From contig CANJNZ010000016.1 of NCBI GenBank assembly GCA_947476045.1, positions 1-64,000 on the forward strand: DNA of 64,000 nucleotides, given 5' to 3'. Origin of the DNA: Chthoniobacteraceae bacterium (GTDB lineage Bacteria > Verrucomicrobiota > Verrucomicrobiia > Chthoniobacterales > Chthoniobacteraceae). A program made the translations under genes and the position numbers. The first letter of the stretch is position 1; each line of letters starts with the position of its first letter. Of this stretch, positions 6,952 through 59,415 are shown one piece after another. The notes below the pieces were generated by a model. It was not told the DNA's origin. It ran no database searches and saw only the letters and a list, made by a program, of their open reading frames with translations.

Positions 6952-8085
6952 TCACCGACCAACTGGCTTCTCTATTGCAGGCTTGGAATCTTCGTTCGCC
7001 GCCTTGCTCAACTTCATGATGAGCATCCCGGCGGCAACGAGACCGGCCAGCAACATGATAAGTATGGCGACGGTGAACCAACTCAGACCCTGTTGCGACT
7101 TTGGAGCGTCGATTACCACACGTGCTTTTTGTTGGGCCTTTCCTCCGGCACGCATCCGCGCCAGCGCCTCGTCGCGGGCAAACTGAAGCTGTTCGATAAA
7201 CTCATCATAGCTCTGCTGCCGGTCATCCGGATTCTTCAAAAGCGTGCGATTGATCGCGTAAGCCGTAGCGTTGCAAACATGAGGCGCCCACGCCTGGATG
7301 CTCACTGCCTGCGCACGCAGATGCTTCAGCGCGACATGCGAGGCATCCTGCGCCTCAAACGGCGGCCTTCCTGAAATGGCATGAAAGAGCGTCGCGCCGA
7401 GCGAATAAATATCACTGCGAAAATCCTCCGAAACTCTGTTCAGTCGCTCGGGGGACAAATAATATGGAGTTCCCCAGATTTCACCAGTTGCCTGCGCCTG
7501 CTGCTCGAAAAGAATCGCCAGTCCAAAATCCACGATCTTAGTGGTTCCATCCTCGGCGAACAAAATGTTTCCCGGCTTCACATCGCGGTGAACCAGTCCG
7601 CGCTCAAAACCCGCCTTCAGTCCTTTTGCAATCTCGATCCCGATTTGCAACGCCCGCACCTCCGGCACACGCACTATCTTTTCCATCAATCCATCCAGCG
7701 TTCCGTTTGCCACCAATTCCATCGCCAGAAAGACGTGCCCATCGTCGGCACCGAACGAGTAAACCTTCACCACGTTTGGGTGATTGATGGAAGCCGTCAC
7801 CCGGGCCTCGCTCTCAAACATACTCACAAATTCCGGATCGCTGCTGTATTCCGTGCACAATAGTTTCAACGCGACGAAACGGTTCAGTGTTTTATCCACC
7901 GCGCGATACACGACTCCCTGTCCGCCCTGGCCCAAAATGTTCAGCATTTCGTATTGCCCGAAATTTCTGCGCACATGAATCGCCTTTGCGCAAATGGGGC
8001 ATGTTCGTTCCGCAAAAATCTGCGCGCCAGTAACATCGAGAAGCGAACCGCAAGCAGGACAGGATTCAGTCTGGATTTCAGGCAT
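6952..8085 (-). CDS. Membrane-anchored Ser/Thr protein kinase with N-terminal zinc ribbon
   Basis: A 377-residue Hanks-type kinase. It opens with a treble-Cys ribbon (C9xxC12 and C29xxC32), followed by the kinase domain (about 44-310). The domain shows the Gly loop LGQGGQGVVY, catalytic K74, HRDVKPGN (D169) and DFG (187-189). A single transmembrane segment near 340-362 places the short tail outside, so the kinase faces the cytoplasm with almost no sensor domain. It closely resembles the N-terminal part of the 833-residue kinase at 56914-59415, so the two are paralogues. It is divergent from the MFS gene. Substrates unknown. Confidence 0.9.
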   Translation of the reverse strand: MPEIQTESCPACGSLLDVTGAQIFAERTCPICAKAIHVRRNFGQYEMLNILGQGGQGVVYRAVDKTLNRFVALKLLCTEYSSDPEFVSMFESEARVTASINHPNVVKVYSFGADDGHVFLAMELVANGTLDGLMEKIVRVPEVRALQIGIEIAKGLKAGFERGLVHRDVKPGNILFAEDGTTKIVDFGLAILFEQQAQATGEIWGTPYYLSPERLNRVSEDFRSDIYSLGATLFHAISGRPPFEAQDASHVALKHLRAQAVSIQAWAPHVCNATAYAINRTLLKNPDDRQQSYDEFIEQLQFARDEALARMRAGGKAQQKARVVIDAPKSQQGLSWFTVAILIMLLAGLVAAGMLIMKLSKAANEDSKPAIEKPVGR

Positions 8086-25061: not shown

Positions 25062-25103
25062 AAAAAACACACCCTCCGCCAGCAGGACCGGCTCAGGGTG
25101 TGT
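25061..25103 (-). terminator. Terminator for the Roadblock/MglA operon
   Basis: 9-bp arms (ACACACCCT at 25067-25075 and its complement at 25095-25103). Read on the minus strand, the hairpin is followed by seven T residues, so it ends the operon running from 27862. On the plus strand there is only an A-run after it, so it would be poor for the small membrane-protein pair. Confidence 0.8.
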
Positions 25104-25120
25104 AAAAACAGGGAGAAAAA

Positions 25121-25591
25121 TTAAGTGCGCTTGAAGAGCGAGTTCACGTCTTCCGGATTCATGTCGCAGAGATCGAGACCCATGTCGCCGCGTGCGGAAG
25201 CGGTTTTGATTTGGTTGGCGATCTGTTTTACCGCTGGCGCGGCGTAGTATTTCATGGAGCCGACGGTTTGCTGCGTGCCGAAGACGAGGACGAGGAGACA
25301 GTGTTCATCAATGTTGAGGATGAGCGTGCTATAGGTCTCACCCTGCTGATACATGCTGCTGAAATTGTTCTCGTTCACAAGCTGCGCCATGAATTGCGTG
25401 GCGTTGAATGCATTCGAACCAAGGGTGGCGAAGGTGACCGTGTCCACAGATTCGCTGCTGCCATACTGGTGGATGAGGTAGCCGGCTTTCTCGACGATCA
25501 TCGCGAGCATGGCCTCGCTCTTTTTGACCAGGTCCTGAAGGTAATGGTCAAAACAGGCGATGTCTTCTTCGATGAGTTGTGGAAATGCCAT
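25121..25591 (-). CDS. Roadblock/LC7-domain protein (MglB-like)
   Basis: A 156-residue cytoplasmic protein with a Roadblock fold: helix, MLAMIVEKAGYLIHQYG start of the beta sheet, LVNENNFSSMYQQGETYSTLI and ILNIDEHCLLVLVFG. In other bacteria such proteins act as GTPase-activating or co-scaffold partners of Ras-like MglA. It is the last gene of a three-gene operon with the GTPase (30 bp upstream) and the large Roadblock scaffold, so it is the natural GAP-like partner. Its C-terminus (about 120-156) is Asp-rich and extends past the domain. Confidence 0.85.
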   Translation of the reverse strand: MAFPQLIEEDIACFDHYLQDLVKKSEAMLAMIVEKAGYLIHQYGSSESVDTVTFATLGSNAFNATQFMAQLVNENNFSSMYQQGETYSTLILNIDEHCLLVLVFGTQQTVGSMKYYAAPAVKQIANQIKTASARGDMGLDLCDMNPEDVNSLFKRT

Positions 25592-25621
25592 GTGAGTGCA
25601 CTCTCTCCCGGGGGAGAGGGT

Positions 25622-26221
25622 TTATTTGTTCAGATATTTGTGAATGAGCATCTTCGTAATCATGTTCAGCGTCTCGAAAACTCCTTCACACTTGTTGGCC
25701 ACGCCTTCAAAATACGGGACATGAACTTCGCGGTTGTTCAACACGTATTCCAGATATTCGACAGGTGCCGCGTCCTCAGTGTCACGCTTGTTGTATTGGA
25801 TGACGTAGGGGATGTCCTCAAGGTTGAGGTTTAGAGACTTCAAATTGTCTGTCATGTGGCCGAAGGTCTCGATGTTTTCGCCCATTTTCTCGTATTGGCT
25901 GTCTGCCACAAAAACGATGCCGTCCACTCCACGGAGCACAATCTGGCGCGTCGCATTGTAGATGACCTGGCCGGGCACGGTGAAGAGCGAGAATTTGGTT
26001 TTGAAACCCTTGATCGTTGTCGCTTCGAGTGGGAAGAAGTCGAAGAAGAGCGTGCGGTCACTGCTCGTCGCAAGGCTGGTCATTTTGCCCTTGGGCGCTG
26101 AATCAGGCACCTGCACATTGGCGTGGACTTGCTCTAGGTTGGTGGTTTTGCCGCTCTTTGCAGGACCGTAATATACGATCTTCAGCTGTAGCTCTTTGGT
26201 GGCGCGATTGATGATGGCCAT
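25622..26221 (-). CDS. mglA: MglA-like small Ras-family GTPase
   Basis: A 199-residue prokaryotic small GTPase. The P-loop is at 19-26 (GPAKSGKT), switch II has TVPGQ (81-85) followed by VIYNATRQIVLRGVDGIVF, and the base motif is NKRD (144-147). It matches MglA of Myxococcus closely around TVPGQ and FVADSQ. MglA sets cell polarity and motility together with a Roadblock GAP and a response regulator. All three partner types are encoded here, so this is a complete-looking module. The gene lies 12 bp after the scaffold gene. Confidence 0.93.
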   Translation of the reverse strand: MAIINRATKELQLKIVYYGPAKSGKTTNLEQVHANVQVPDSAPKGKMTSLATSSDRTLFFDFFPLEATTIKGFKTKFSLFTVPGQVIYNATRQIVLRGVDGIVFVADSQYEKMGENIETFGHMTDNLKSLNLNLEDIPYVIQYNKRDTEDAAPVEYLEYVLNNREVHVPYFEGVANKCEGVFETLNMITKMLIHKYLNK

Positions 26222-26233
26222 AGTGTTTAAATG

Positions 26234-27862
26234 TTAAGCGTTTTGGGTTGCGAGTTCCTCGGCGATGAGGTGGAGACCGCCCGGCAGCGTGGTTCCAGTT
26301 TTACCGAGAGTAGCAAAAAATACTTTTCCTCTGCGGAAGAAACGACAAGGGCCGTTCGAGGTCACGACCGCAACCTCCGAGGTTTCGCCAAGCTGCATTT
26401 CCCCTGTGTATTTATCGAGTCGGCTGAAAATCTGTGGCATGAATGCAGCGAATGTATCAGCAGCTATTCCTTCGGGAAGTTTTTGTGCAACTACAAGTCC
26501 TTCTTCGAGGGCGACGATGGCACCGGTCACGCCAGGCAGAGTGCAAGCATGCTTCACAAGTTCGCTGGGATTCCAACTCGTCTTGCCGGGTTCATTGAAT
26601 AGCTCGCCTAGATTTTCCGGTTCGCTGCTCTGCGAAGGTGTGGTAGTGGCTGCGACAACAGCCACGGACGGCTGCTCAACTACGGGCTCTGGCTTTAAGG
26701 TAAACGAAAGAGGCGCTGCGGGTGCGGCCTCTACTTGCGGCTCGGCAGCGACTGGCATTTTCAGTTCAACAGGTGCCAAAGGTGCAGCAGGCGCTACAGG
26801 TGCCACAGGCTCAGGAGCCGGCGCAGCAGGCGTGCGTCCAGCAGCCGGGCCAAAGAAATCTGGCAATTCCGTGCTCGCTGCATCTTTAGTGCTGCTGCGT
26901 TTCTTGGCTCCAGTCGCGGAGACAAATGCAGGAGCAACGATTTTTAGCGGCAGCAAGAGCTGGGTATCATCCGGAATGTCGATGTTGCCGCTAAAAGCGG
27001 GTTTCAGGTAGCCACGGAGCTGCGCCCACGTGAAGAGGACCTTGCCTTTTTGCAGGCCTGCGCTGACTTCGCCAACGGGAAGAACGATTTTCGTATCGCC
27101 AGTAAATATGGAAAGTTCGCTACGAACACCCTCGGGCCAGCCAGCAGCGACTTCGACAAGTGCGAGTGAAAGCTCGCCGTCGAGCTTCAATGGCTCGGGC
27201 GCAGACGCGACCGGTTCTTTCCGCGTCGGGACATTGCTTGGAATACCACTCGTTTCTTTGCCGGGCGGCTCAAACGATGGCATCCTCAGCGTCTTCGGCT
27301 GCTCGACGGCTGACGGAACAGGAGCGGCAACTTGTGGCGCTGGCTGCAGCGGTGCCGAAGCGGCTTGATTGAGTGCACGAGAGGTATTGTCGCCACCGAA
27401 AAGCCCGGTGACTTCCGCAGGCACATCATAATCACGCTGGTCGTCACGGCGCTTGAGACGGGCAGGGTTGATGCTTTTGAAAATCTCGGAAAGCGGCACT
27501 TCGACCATGCGCTTTTCTTCCACGTCGGCTTTTCGCAACGTTCCGCCCGGTGCCTGACGATACAAACTGGCGAGGGACATTTTTACCGTGCCTGTGGGCA
27601 ATTGCTTCATGATCGCGGTCACCGGCAATACGACCTTCACAGAAGCCTCAGGCATTTGATTGATAATCGCCTTCAGGTCGTTGGGGAATTTTTCCAAAAT
27701 CGAACGAAGCGAAAGTGACGCTACTTCCACAGCGTGATTAGCAGCGGCGGCAATTTCAGGCTGCCGTGCGACGGGTGCTGAAAAAGGAGTTGCGACTCGT
27801 GGTGTCTGAACGACGACTTCAGAACTTGTCCTGTTGAAAATTTGTTTAAGAAACTTGAACAT
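26234..27862 (-). CDS. Large scaffold protein: two repeats of an unknown domain plus C-terminal Roadblock domain
   Basis: A 542-residue cytoplasmic protein. Two related blocks of about 70-80 residues (about 49-130 and 227-310) share the pattern FP.dLk..I...p.a.v.LPV..I...L..G.V....a.L, and are joined by Pro/Ala-rich linkers. A second linker leads to a C-terminal Roadblock/LC7 domain (about 415-540; LVKHACTLPGVTGAIVALEE). It is first in the operon with the MglA-like GTPase and the small Roadblock protein. I infer a scaffold or GTPase regulator. The repeat family is not one I recognise. Confidence 0.82.
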   Translation of the reverse strand: MFKFLKQIFNRTSSEVVVQTPRVATPFSAPVARQPEIAAAANHAVEVASLSLRSILEKFPNDLKAIINQMPEASVKVVLPVTAIMKQLPTGTVKMSLASLYRQAPGGTLRKADVEEKRMVEVPLSEIFKSINPARLKRRDDQRDYDVPAEVTGLFGGDNTSRALNQAASAPLQPAPQVAAPVPSAVEQPKTLRMPSFEPPGKETSGIPSNVPTRKEPVASAPEPLKLDGELSLALVEVAAGWPEGVRSELSIFTGDTKIVLPVGEVSAGLQKGKVLFTWAQLRGYLKPAFSGNIDIPDDTQLLLPLKIVAPAFVSATGAKKRSSTKDAASTELPDFFGPAAGRTPAAPAPEPVAPVAPAAPLAPVELKMPVAAEPQVEAAPAAPLSFTLKPEPVVEQPSVAVVAATTTPSQSSEPENLGELFNEPGKTSWNPSELVKHACTLPGVTGAIVALEEGLVVAQKLPEGIAADTFAAFMPQIFSRLDKYTGEMQLGETSEVAVVTSNGPCRFFRRGKVFFATLGKTGTTLPGGLHLIAEELATQNA

Positions 27863-28016
27863 TTTCGGGCTGATTTTTCAAAACAGAATTAGCAACATGG
27901 GTGCCACCAAGCCTTACTAAACAAAAATATATCTTCTCATCCTGTCGGCTTGCCCCTTGCTATAAATCTGCTGTTTCTCCTCGTTATAAATTCAAGTCTA
28001 GCCCAACATCACGCAC

Positions 28017-29069
28017 ATGGCCACGCGCCAAAAAATCCTAATTCTCGATGACGAACAGGACCTTCTGGAAATCTACCAGGAGATTCTTGCACGTCTCCCC
28101 AGCCAGCCGGAAATCCGCACGGCCACCAACGGCCACGACGCCATAGCACTTCTCGAAAACGAACCGTTCGCTTTGCTCCTCGTGGATTTGAACATGCCGC
28201 AGATGGATGGCTTTCAAGTCCTCGCCGTCGTTCGCCGCCGCTTCCCGACGCTCCGCACCGTAGTGATGACTGGTGCGACCGAGGACGACCTCCGTGCGCG
28301 CGCCTATCGCATTGGCGTGGATCTTTATTTGGAAAAGCCGAAGACCGGGCGTGAAATCATCTTCTTTGTGGACTGCATCGAGAGTCTGCTCGAACGCGAA
28401 AACCAGGGCGGCTTCCGCGGCGTTCAGAGCAAGACCCTCCTCGATATTCTCCAAATGGAGTGCATCACACAAAATACCTGCGTCCTCAAAATCACCAGTG
28501 CCCAGGGCGAAGGTCGCGTGTGGATTCAAAAAGGCGAAATCATTGACGCCGCAGTCGAAGACAAAAGCGGCAAGCCCGCCATCGTCGAGATGCTCGCATG
28601 GAAGGCTGGTAATTTTGAAGTCCTCCCCTACGGACTGCCACGTCCTCGCAACATCTTCATCAACTACGAAAGTCTCCTCATGGAGACGGCGCAGACGATG
28701 GATGAGGCTGAGGAGATCACTGCAAACCCCGAGCAAACCCCGGAAGGGATGCTGGCTTCCTTCTCTCGTTTCACCGGCGTCCAGTTCGCCATGGCCGTGG
28801 ACCTCGATGGCGGAAAACACGAACACTGGGGCTGCGACGAACCCATCATCCTCGGCGAGTGGATTGCAAAAACCACCCAGTCTTTCAAACAACTCGGGGT
28901 AAAAACCCAGGCTGGCGAACTCCTGGATATCGAGTCGCTCGGTCAACAACGTCACCTCTCCATTCTTTCCGGCGATCAGGAAGCCCTCGGAATCGGCTTC
29001 ACACGCACGCTTGGCATTGGTCAAATCCACGAAACCCTAAAGCAAATCGAAGCAAAATGGGCATACTAA
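28017..29069 (+). CDS. Response regulator: receiver domain plus PATAN (DUF4388) domain
   Basis: A 350-residue protein. Residues 1-125 form a receiver with the phospho-acceptor D57 (LLLVDLNMP), the acidic pair DD at 11-12 and K107 (LYLEKPK). Residues about 135-235 form a PATAN-type domain (FRGVQSKTLLDILQMECITQNTCVLKI), found in polarity and pili regulators of cyanobacteria and Myxococcus. The C-terminal 110 residues look like a Roadblock-like beta fold. It is divergent from the MglA operon (155-bp gap) and likely signals to it. No kinase is nearby. Confidence 0.88.
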   Translation: MATRQKILILDDEQDLLEIYQEILARLPSQPEIRTATNGHDAIALLENEPFALLLVDLNMPQMDGFQVLAVVRRRFPTLRTVVMTGATEDDLRARAYRIGVDLYLEKPKTGREIIFFVDCIESLLERENQGGFRGVQSKTLLDILQMECITQNTCVLKITSAQGEGRVWIQKGEIIDAAVEDKSGKPAIVEMLAWKAGNFEVLPYGLPRPRNIFINYESLLMETAQTMDEAEEITANPEQTPEGMLASFSRFTGVQFAMAVDLDGGKHEHWGCDEPIILGEWIAKTTQSFKQLGVKTQAGELLDIESLGQQRHLSILSGDQEALGIGFTRTLGIGQIHETLKQIEAKWAY

Positions 29070-29779
29070 GACCGTTTTCCAGGGCATCTGTCCCCGTCAG
29101 CGCCGAGCGGCTTCCGAGCGGTTGTTTCGCCGTCCACCGTGGCGGTGCAGTCGTTTCATCCACGCTCAGCAGTTCCTATTCAAAAAAATTAATGGCCGAA
29201 ATTGCTAGCACAGTTCTTGAGGCTTTCAGATCCGCAAACGAAAATAACTTCCTGCTCCACGATCTCCACATTCACTACAGCGGGCTTCACATCCTCGCTC
29301 GCGAATTACGCGGAGGCGCACTCATTTTCCTCAATCCACAACAGCCAAACTTTACAAGGCCCACACTTCCTTCCGCCATGAGCTACAAAAACCTCGACGA
29401 ATTCATCCTCCACCTTGAAGCCCACATCGAATGCTGGAAGCAGTTCAATCACTACGTGAACCTTGCACGGGACAAAAAATTCACGCCCGACGAAGAGAGC
29501 CAGTTTCTCGATCTGAAAAGCCTCATCACCCAGGGCACTGAAGCCGTCGCAGCGAGCGATGCAAAAGGCGGCCCGCGCAAGGAGGACGTGCTCGCTCTCT
29601 TCGCCAGCGCACCCTCACTGCGCTACCTCTCGGATATGAGCGACAGCATTCCCAGCGTCGAAGGCCAGTGGCACCGCATCTATCTCTCCCTCCAATCTCT
29701 GCTCGGCCAGCTCAAGGTGCAGCAAAATAAAGCCGAGGAAAAAGGCAACGGCGGCTGGAGTTTGTTCGGTCGAAAATAG
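29057..29779 (+). CDS. Partner protein of the receiver-PATAN regulator
   Basis: A 240-residue protein from the ATG at 29057, overlapping the regulator stop by 13 bp, so it is translationally linked. The first 95 residues (ERLPSGCFAVHRGGAVVSSTL, then FLLHDLHIHYSGLHILARELRGGALIFLNP) have the beta-alpha layout of Roadblock-like domains. The rest is helical with a central charged helix (LHLEAHIECWKQFNHY) and a basic end. No exact family recognised. Its last codons form half of a convergent hairpin (29772-29790). Confidence 0.75.
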   Translation: MGILRPFSRASVPVSAERLPSGCFAVHRGGAVVSSTLSSSYSKKLMAEIASTVLEAFRSANENNFLLHDLHIHYSGLHILARELRGGALIFLNPQQPNFTRPTLPSAMSYKNLDEFILHLEAHIECWKQFNHYVNLARDKKFTPDEESQFLDLKSLITQGTEAVAASDAKGGPRKEDVLALFASAPSLRYLSDMSDSIPSVEGQWHRIYLSLQSLLGQLKVQQNKAEEKGNGGWSLFGRK

Positions 29780-56913: not shown

Positions 56914-59415
56914 CTACTGTCCGCGGGGCGCGTCGTTAAAGCCTCGTCTCGATGGATTCAGTGGCTTGTTTGCACTTTCGGTCCCATCACTAAAACCCGG
57001 GTCCGGCTTGGGCTGTGCTGGCTGCTTTTGTATGACGGGTGCCGGCGGCGGGAAATAGATCGCCTTCAGCAAGCTGTATTGCTCATCCAGATTAGCCGCT
57101 TCGTCCATCAACGCGCGGGCCTCGGGGTAAAGCTGAGAAAACATGCAATATACACCTGCATACCATTTGCGGGCTGCGATGCTTTTCTGGGTCTTGGAGG
57201 GATTGTTGTAAAAATTCGCCATGGCGAGCACGGACTGCGGGGATAGCTCTGTCCAGGGGACAGGCACCGTCCCATAAGCAAATTGGATTTCGATATTTGC
57301 TTCGTTCACCCGGGCAACTCCGCCGATGATCTGCTGGCCGCTCCTGCGCAGAATCGGGGATTTGTAAGTGAGCGAATTCAAATCAAACATGAGCTTCTCT
57401 TTGAAAAGCATGAGCCATTCGACCCGGTGCACGATCAAATCGCGTTCCTTCGTCCGCGTGCTCCCCTTCAAAGCGAGACCGTTAATGAGATTGAAAGCCT
57501 CCTTGAACAGATATCTGTCACAAAGATTCTTCACCTTGATTTTTGCATCAGAGATCGCCTGCTCATCTCCAGCATCTGCTGCGGCCTTTTTTTGCTCTGC
57601 AGCCTTTTTATTCGCAACAAGCATATCGGTGAGCTTCGAACTGATATCGCGCTCTACTTGATTAAGCTGACCGAGCAGCGCGCTGGATTTAATCTTGTCC
57701 TTCACTTCCGGCAGTCGCTTGAGTGCGGCAGTGACGAGATCCGGTTCCGTTTCGTATTTCCTCAACGTCTCCACCGTCCTCGAAAAAAGTGAATACTCTT
57801 CGAGATACGGTGCGACGAGCGGGCGATACTCGGCGACCCATGATGATTCATTGGCAGGCATCGCGTCCTGGAATTGCCTCATCAACGTAATGCCGTTTTT
57901 CAGATCACCAGCCTCCCAGTTCTTTAAGCCGAGGATCAGCAGGGCGATGGACTCATACGACTTGTTGTCGAATTTTCCCGCTACTTCTATGGGTGCAGTT
58001 TCGGAGGCTGAGGCAAGTTCACCGAGGCTTGTGAAGAAACCCACGAGCTTCGTATCAAGCCCGATCGCAGCGGGCGAAATTCGTTTTGCAAGATCGCCAA
58101 AGATATACCGCGCGGGCACCGGACGCCCGGCGAGCAGCTCGCACAAACCCTCATGGATGGCGCTCCAGCTATTGCGCGGCTCAGGAAGACGCCCGTCCGC
58201 ATACAGAGTGCGAAATTCAACCGCTGCCGGACGAAAACTACCTTTGATCATCTGGAGACGAGCTTGGTTGTAACGCGACTCGGCATCGTCGGTCTGCGCC
58301 GTTTTAGCTGGTGGAGCTGCCGGCGGAGCGACGACAGGCCGGCGGCCCATATGTGAAATCCCAAAATAAACCCCGCAGGCCACCAACGCAGCCATCAATA
58401 TATAACCGATGCCTATTCCGCCGTGCGGCTCGGGTGCCGCGGGCGCAGCGGTGCGCGCCATCGCTACAGGATTTGGGCGTTTGCGATGCTCGCTCTTTGC
58501 GTATTCGAGATTCTGGATGAACTCCTCATAACTCGACCAGCGGTCCTCAGGCTTCACCGAGAGCGCCTTATCAATAACATAGCTGGTCGCTGAAGCCACA
58601 TGCGGAGCGTAGTGATGCAAATGCGTGGGCTTGCTCTTGATCCGCTTCAGCTCGCTCATCGAATTCGTCTCAGAAATAAACGGAGGACGTCCCGCGATGG
58701 CGTGGAAAAGCGTCGCCGCCAGCGAATACATGTCGCTGCGGAAATCCTCCTGCTGCCCATCCAACTTTTCCGGCGAAACGTAAAACGGTGTCGCCCACAC
58801 TTCGCCCTCTTCCTCGTGCTGCTTCTCGACCAGAATCGCCAGACCGAAGTCCACGATCTTCGCTGTGTTCTCGTCGGAAAACAAAATATTGCCCGGCTTG
58901 ATGTCGCGGTGAATCAACCCTTTTTCCAGCCCCGCCTGCAGCCCTTTTGCAATTTGGATGCCCACATCCAGCGCGCGATCCTCTGGCACTTTTTTGACCT
59001 TTGTCATGAGTGCGTCCAGACTCCCGTTGTCCACCACCTCCATCGCGAGATAGAGCAGGCCCATATCTTCGCCAAAAGAGAACACCTTCACCACGTTCGG
59101 GTGGCTCAAACTCGCAGTCACCTTCGCTTCACTTTGGAAGCGCCGCACAAAAATAGGATCCTCGCTATATTCCCGCTTCATCAACTTGATGGCCACGGCG
59201 CGGTTTAATTTTTTGTCCACCGCGCGATACACCATCCCCTGCCCGCCCTCGCCCAGAACGCCGATGATCTCATAGTTCGCAAAAAGCTGACGCACGCGCA
59301 TCGACGTATTGCAGGATGGGCACTCCAACTTGGCATAAGGCTCCTCCTTCGACACATCAATCATCGCGCCGCAAGACGGGCACGTAGCGATATTCGTTAT
59401 TGCGGAAGATTCCAT
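56914..59415 (-). CDS. Large Ser/Thr protein kinase with zinc ribbon and long extracytoplasmic domain
   Basis: An 833-residue kinase. It starts with a zinc ribbon (C12xxC15 and C32xxC35), then the kinase domain (about 48-315) with LGEGGQG, K77, HRDIKPGN (D171) and DFG. A transmembrane helix (about 327-346) is followed by about 480 residues outside the cytoplasm: a helical, charged domain that ends in a Pro-rich tail. It is a paralogue of the 377-residue kinase at 6952 with an added sensor. Its stop converges on the L,D-transpeptidase gene, suggesting a link to cell-wall sensing (inference). Confidence 0.9.
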   Translation of the reverse strand: MESSAITNIATCPSCGAMIDVSKEEPYAKLECPSCNTSMRVRQLFANYEIIGVLGEGGQGMVYRAVDKKLNRAVAIKLMKREYSEDPIFVRRFQSEAKVTASLSHPNVVKVFSFGEDMGLLYLAMEVVDNGSLDALMTKVKKVPEDRALDVGIQIAKGLQAGLEKGLIHRDIKPGNILFSDENTAKIVDFGLAILVEKQHEEEGEVWATPFYVSPEKLDGQQEDFRSDMYSLAATLFHAIAGRPPFISETNSMSELKRIKSKPTHLHHYAPHVASATSYVIDKALSVKPEDRWSSYEEFIQNLEYAKSEHRKRPNPVAMARTAAPAAPEPHGGIGIGYILMAALVACGVYFGISHMGRRPVVAPPAAPPAKTAQTDDAESRYNQARLQMIKGSFRPAAVEFRTLYADGRLPEPRNSWSAIHEGLCELLAGRPVPARYIFGDLAKRISPAAIGLDTKLVGFFTSLGELASASETAPIEVAGKFDNKSYESIALLILGLKNWEAGDLKNGITLMRQFQDAMPANESSWVAEYRPLVAPYLEEYSLFSRTVETLRKYETEPDLVTAALKRLPEVKDKIKSSALLGQLNQVERDISSKLTDMLVANKKAAEQKKAAADAGDEQAISDAKIKVKNLCDRYLFKEAFNLINGLALKGSTRTKERDLIVHRVEWLMLFKEKLMFDLNSLTYKSPILRRSGQQIIGGVARVNEANIEIQFAYGTVPVPWTELSPQSVLAMANFYNNPSKTQKSIAARKWYAGVYCMFSQLYPEARALMDEAANLDEQYSLLKAIYFPPPAPVIQKQPAQPKPDPGFSDGTESANKPLNPSRRGFNDAPRGQ

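Follow-up and report, generated by a model that had tools for sequence, protein, structure and literature searches.

We analysed a 64,000-nucleotide stretch of DNA (the window) from a Chthoniobacteraceae genome (Verrucomicrobiota; 4.37 Mb in 123 contigs), and found at positions 25121-29779 all five genes that an earlier note had placed there. They are genuine genes arranged as two divergent operons, one encoding an adaptor, MglA and MglB, and the other a REC-PATAN response regulator and a fifth protein (gene5). The features are listed below, with the evidence for each in brackets:

25062..25120, minus strand: likely intrinsic terminator following mglB, a CACACCCT...AGGGTGTG stem with a T run on the minus strand (read from the sequence)
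25121..25591, minus strand: mglB, predicted Roadblock protein of 156 aa with an MglB-type C-terminal extension, EDVNSLFKRT (Pfam Robl_LC7 and profile comparison with 6izw)
25622..26221, minus strand: mglA, Ras-like GTPase of 199 aa with Group 1 motifs (profile comparison with 6h17/5ymx, invariant motifs)
26234..27862, minus strand: adaptor, 542 aa, with two beta-alpha repeat domains, Ala/Pro-rich linkers and a C-terminal Roadblock domain (AlphaFold2, Pfam, structure comparison)
27413..27730, minus strand: adaptor repeat domain 1, residues about 45-150, a new domain family (hhalign against repeat 2; no Pfam match)
26903..27181, minus strand: adaptor repeat domain 2, residues about 228-320 (AlphaFold2 block; hhalign against repeat 1)
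26237..26581, minus strand: adaptor C-terminal Roadblock domain, residues about 428-542 (Foldseek 5.1e-8; VIA Z up to 16.7)
27863..28016, no strand: divergent intergenic region of 154 nt between the operons (sequence and ORF coordinates)
28017..29069, plus strand: response regulator, with REC at 1-130, PATAN/DUF4388 at 133-235 and a probable cryptic Roadblock domain at 242-349 (Pfam, invariant residues, AlphaFold2)
29057..29779, plus strand: gene5, with an N-terminal part of about 105 aa and a conserved C-terminal part (gene5C) of about 133 aa (orthologues, alignments)

In the direction of transcription, the minus-strand operon runs from the adaptor (27862-26234) across a gap of 12 nt to the GTPase gene (26221-25622), and across a further 30 nt to the small Roadblock gene (25591-25121). 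On the plus strand, the 350-aa regulator gene and gene5 overlap by 13 nt, the ATG of gene5 lying inside the end of the regulator gene, and locus coordinates show the same overlap in relatives; the earlier note had not pointed it out. A promoter scan found no consensus sigma-70 promoter in the intergenic region; the terminator has a loop longer than the terminator scanner permits, and its inverted repeat was read directly from the sequence. All five genes are under purifying selection (dN/dS 0.03-0.24 against two congeners, one comparison being saturated), thus the ORFs are not chance. The closest loci come from MAGs labelled Spartobacteria, Chthoniobacteraceae or Prosthecobacter, and from Chthoniobacter flavus Ellin428, which has the same gene cluster (MglA identity 82%); from these named relatives we assign the window's genome to Chthoniobacterales. 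Elsewhere in the window, two minus-strand ORFs (6952-8085 and 56914-59415) have a zinc-ribbon-like N-terminal start followed by kinase-like sequence (GQGGQGVVYRAVDK and GEGGQGMVYRAVDK, respectively). A protein of about 174 aa with a zinc-ribbon-like start (MDIIFNCPECEQELEV in L080) is encoded downstream of mglB in six loci (L059, L064, L080, L097, L105, and L109).

The GTPase, described in the earlier note as Ras-like with all G motifs, is a small single-domain protein of 199 aa that matches Ras/Arf in Pfam and indeed contains G1 (GPAKSGKT), G3 (TVPGQ) and G4 (NKRD), together with an Arg finger (DRT). K25, R56, T57, TVPGQ (81-85) and NKRD (144-147) are invariant in an alignment of 28 sequences, and R56 adjoins the G2 threonine, T57. 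When a profile of these 28 GTPases was compared with solved structures, the best matches were M. xanthus MglA (6h17 and 5ymx; E 8e-71 and 9e-71, respectively), and Thermus MglA gave E 4e-68. By the criteria of the 2014 survey of Wuichet and Sogaard-Andersen (PMC4316618), namely a TVPGQ G3 and an Arg finger by the G2 Thr, the GTPase would be a Group 1-type MglA, an assignment made by motif and profile comparison; Verrucomicrobia are listed in that survey with Group 5 and without Group 1 MglA.

The small Roadblock protein in the GTPase operon was likewise called correctly: the 156-aa product matches Pfam Robl_LC7 (6.5e-8), and its orthologue profile aligns with M. xanthus MglB (6izw) at E 8.3e-25, through the C-terminal LF helix. 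The protein is therefore predicted to be an MglB, LF helix included. In M. xanthus, the D/E-containing C-terminal helix of MglB binds MglA and promotes exchange (PMC6785124). The kinship with Myxococcus parts suggested in the earlier note is thus borne out as far as the homology of MglA and MglB goes.

The 542-aa protein had been described as a Roadblock scaffold with unfamiliar repeats; its Roadblock domain and its repeats both stand, and the scaffold (adaptor) role is one that its architecture suggests. AlphaFold2 predicts three confident blocks (residues about 45-150, 228-320, and 418-542) separated by long Ala/Pro-rich linkers, predicted with low confidence and apparently flexible. The C-terminal block matches Pfam Robl_LC7 in the window protein (1.4e-5) and in 22 of 23 orthologues, and structure comparison agrees (Foldseek 5.1e-8; VIA Z 14-17, the top match having Z 16.7 and rmsd 2.1 over 114 residues), with LAMTOR2 at VIA Z of about 13-14. 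No significant match to MglB was obtained for this C-terminus by hhalign; since the domain is clearly Roadblock by fold, we regard the hhalign comparison with MglB as insensitive here. What the note called unfamiliar repeats is a beta-alpha domain of about 85 residues, present in two homologous copies (hhalign 97.4%, E 1.5e-11); a search of the orthologue set gave no Pfam match for it. Fold searches with the full-length adaptor and regulator gave lists filled by Roadblock and REC matches, respectively. The repeat domain is also found in two other proteins of relatives, a long coiled-coil protein (L031:1081-3363; an ORF of 2494 aa in G261) and a 158-aa ORF beside a secDF-like gene (L019:1492-1968, in G212).

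The regulator on the opposite strand is a receiver-PATAN protein, as had been proposed (Pfam Response_reg 6.5e-22; DUF4388/PATAN 6.1e-15), and its receiver, predicted to be phosphorylatable, has residues D11, D12, D57, and K107 invariant in 25 orthologues. Its third domain (residues 242-349), which the earlier note does not mention, is probably a cryptic Roadblock domain: the AlphaFold2 model has the helix and strand order a-bb-a-bbb-a, as in Roadblock. The signal in the sequence is weak: Pfam Robl matches 3 of 21 members, at best with 0.004, and the best-matching solved structure is a Roadblock, at E 0.24. With hhalign, the regulator C-terminus gave no significant match to MglB, in the same insensitive comparison.

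Among the 80 loci with the best MglA matches, 61 could be tested for gene5 and 57 of these have an orthologue. In loci that show both halves, the two form a single gene in 12 cases and two separate genes in 50; most relatives thus keep as two genes what is fused in gene5, which suggests that the two halves act together. The N-terminal half shows a strand-helix-strand pattern by eye. The Roadblock-like identity previously proposed for gene5 was not established, as neither Pfam nor hhalign (the latter against MglB, and insensitive here) returned a Roadblock match for its N-terminus.

Co-occurrence of the genes in relatives, which the earlier note had put forward as a check, is borne out by two sets of genomes. 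Among the 80 best MglA loci, which were chosen by MglA similarity and are not a random sample of the phylum, the adaptor lies directly upstream of mglA on the same strand in all 76 testable loci, mglB lies directly downstream in all 77, and the regulator is divergent from the mglA operon in 63 of 68. The five loci without the divergent regulator have a full-length orthologue elsewhere in each genome, and in the four genomes inspected (L121, L122, L123, and L124) the regulator-gene5 cassette is apart from mglA yet intact. The adaptor, MglA (E<1e-110), the full-length regulator (E<1e-150) and gene5C (E<1e-59) are found in the same 11 of 29 Chthoniobacteraceae genomes, counts that are non-independent trials, as the genomes are related and some are incomplete. 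The other 18 genomes are without this set; in two of them the repeat domain occurs on its own, and a few give hits to a receiver alone or to a distant GTPase. One genus (g109) is split 2/2 for the module and another (g112) is without it throughout, which indicates that the module was gained or lost as a unit. Thus, the adaptor-mglA-mglB and regulator-gene5 cassettes are inherited and lost together in some Verrucomicrobia. The MglA-Roadblock signalling module claimed for the window is upheld, but its compactness is qualified, as the two operons can separate in a genome. A phylum-wide search found the adaptor in 4 of 195 genomes, compared with 17 having an MglA match; this sample apparently holds no genome with a subdivision 3-like MglA, and 4/195 is no measure of module frequency.

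The two-operon MglA switch module most likely puts type IV pili, whether their assembly, their retraction or their polar placement, under the control of a phosphorelay, a reading to which we give a probability of about 0.6. In nine subdivision 3 loci, mglB is followed by a co-oriented gene for a PilT/PilU-family ATPase; six of these ATPase ORFs start -3 to +34 nt from the mglB stop, and in the remaining loci the ORF start is extended or broken. Four PilT-family proteins checked from the subdivision 3 loci all score above the NCBIfam pilT_fam cut-off. This gene order makes type IV pilus control the best explanation. In addition, the window's genome has a second, degenerate MglA-like gene 3′ of PilB- and PilT-type ATPase genes (G000:C54:20654-21184; L114:12637-13191), encoding a GTPase with an altered P-loop (GSVAAGKG) and an altered G3 (TLSGHV); each of the six genomes in the window's genus has a second MglA-like match, and the window's genome has a PilM match above cut-off. 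Published work ties both kinds of protein to pili or spreading: MglA and SgmX stimulate type IV pili in Myxococcus (PMC7519303), Thermus MglA/MglB homologues are implicated in colony spreading (PMC12393216), and PATAN regulators are linked to pili, PixE being hypothesised to bind PilB1 (PMC7690835). We favour pili as the output because of the pilT linkage, the second MglA near PilB/PilT genes, and these published MglA and PATAN ties. Reading the neighbouring genes by eye, we recognised no pilus gene beside the module in the window itself. Of 147 genomes in the order, 145 have PilT-family genes, module-less genomes included, so pili do not need the module; the presence of PilT was therefore rejected as a discriminating test. 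As a separate observation, in six genomes of another family of the order (G220:C419, G205:C14, G242:C389, G248:C47, G254:C399, and G211:C543), a second MglA gene and a PATAN-encoding ORF are on the same strand, 0.9-1.1 kb apart.

The closest described system is the MglA/MglB polarity module of Myxococcus xanthus (with RomR, RomX, RomY, and SgmX), which shares the Group 1 MglA motifs, the intrinsic Arg finger and the MglB C-terminal helix, and in which a receiver-domain protein also works with the GTPase and the output includes type IV pili. In Myxococcus, the genes for RomR and the Frz partners are not near mglA (PMC4316618), whereas mglA, mglB, the adaptor and usually the regulator are clustered here; the regulator has PATAN and a probable Roadblock domain, and we found no described counterpart of the repeat-bearing adaptor. 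Thermus thermophilus likewise has a GTPase and Roadblock pair of related structure (3t12, 1j3w), but the profile aligned with Thermus MglB only to residue 142, and with M. xanthus MglB through the C-terminal helix. The cyanobacterial PATAN-CheY-like regulators PixE, PixG, and LsiR, which have a published type IV pilus link, also combine PATAN and a receiver in one protein; their PATAN is N-terminal to the receiver, whereas in the window regulator REC is N-terminal, PATAN is in the middle and a further domain follows at the C-terminus, and a partner is encoded alongside. Ragulator/LAMTOR similarly uses Roadblock domains as a small-GTPase platform, and the adaptor Roadblock resembles LAMTOR2, but this is a eukaryotic lysosomal complex and homology with the window system is not evident beyond the Roadblock fold. 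MglA-MglB coupling and occasional MglA-PATAN neighbourhoods were already known in 2014 (PMC4316618). A search of the open-access full-text literature, which turned up that survey and a globin-Roadblock sensor structure, gave us no description of this module, and the adaptor, its repeat domain, the regulator with REC, PATAN and a third domain, and the two-cassette layout appear new.

Other outputs have to be weighed against pilus control. Streptomyces conservons (CvnA-D) likewise combine MglA-like and MglB-like proteins, encoded together with a kinase in a conserved locus of several genes that is linked to two-component signalling, and they control the formation of aerial mycelium (PMC4316618). 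A similar relay, in which a sensor kinase acts through the regulator on MglA with a non-motility output (development, secretion or gene expression), would fit the retention of PilT in the order with or without the module. We consider it unlikely: domain searches of the five proteins returned no histidine kinase, DUF742 or DNA-binding domain, the regulator and adaptor being there instead of CvnA (the kinase) and CvnC (the DUF742 protein), and pilT lies inside the operon in one clade. That restriction of the linkage to nine loci of one clade, where it may be a single event, could itself mean that pilT was a clade-specific recruit to a cell-polarity system with non-pilus clients, for example envelope or exopolysaccharide machinery, and the new repeat domain does occur in a long coiled-coil protein; but the second MglA-like gene adjoining pilus-type ATPase genes in the same genus again indicates pili, and we rate this reading as more improbable still.

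It is also conceivable that two independent systems, an MglA-MglB-adaptor switch and a REC-PATAN-gene5 pathway, merely lie back to back. Five genomes do have the two cassettes at separate sites, and gene5C-like genes without linkage to mglA are found in another family of the order (f2). However, both cassettes are in the same 11 Chthoniobacteraceae genomes and neither is in the other 18, one genus being split 2/2, and the divergent linkage is retained in 63 of 68 loci; independence therefore seems to us the least probable reading of all.

If the module does regulate type IV pili, MglB dimers would act as a GAP on MglA and, via the C-terminal helix, as an exchange factor; the Roadblock domain of the adaptor would pair with MglB or with the C-terminal domain of the regulator and tether the GTPase, and the repeats might bind partners, for example the pilus motor. 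Once D57 is phosphorylated, the PATAN part or the Roadblock pairing would change, setting MglA-GTP at the pilus machine. A more specific and tentative version, which we think possible rather than probable, is that the repeats are a new interaction domain and that the adaptor, MglB, the regulator C-terminus and possibly gene5 form a Ragulator-like Roadblock hetero-oligomer, with the phosphorelay setting both the state and the place of MglA at the pilus motor, along another route than that of RomR/RomX.

With this locus, Verrucomicrobiota would gain a defined Group 1-type MglA switch whose candidate partners are encoded together, a compact system for studying the phosphorelay control of MglA and the number of Roadblock proteins required. 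The adaptor repeat represents a further domain family, one that Pfam lacks, and close relatives with and without the module provide natural controls.
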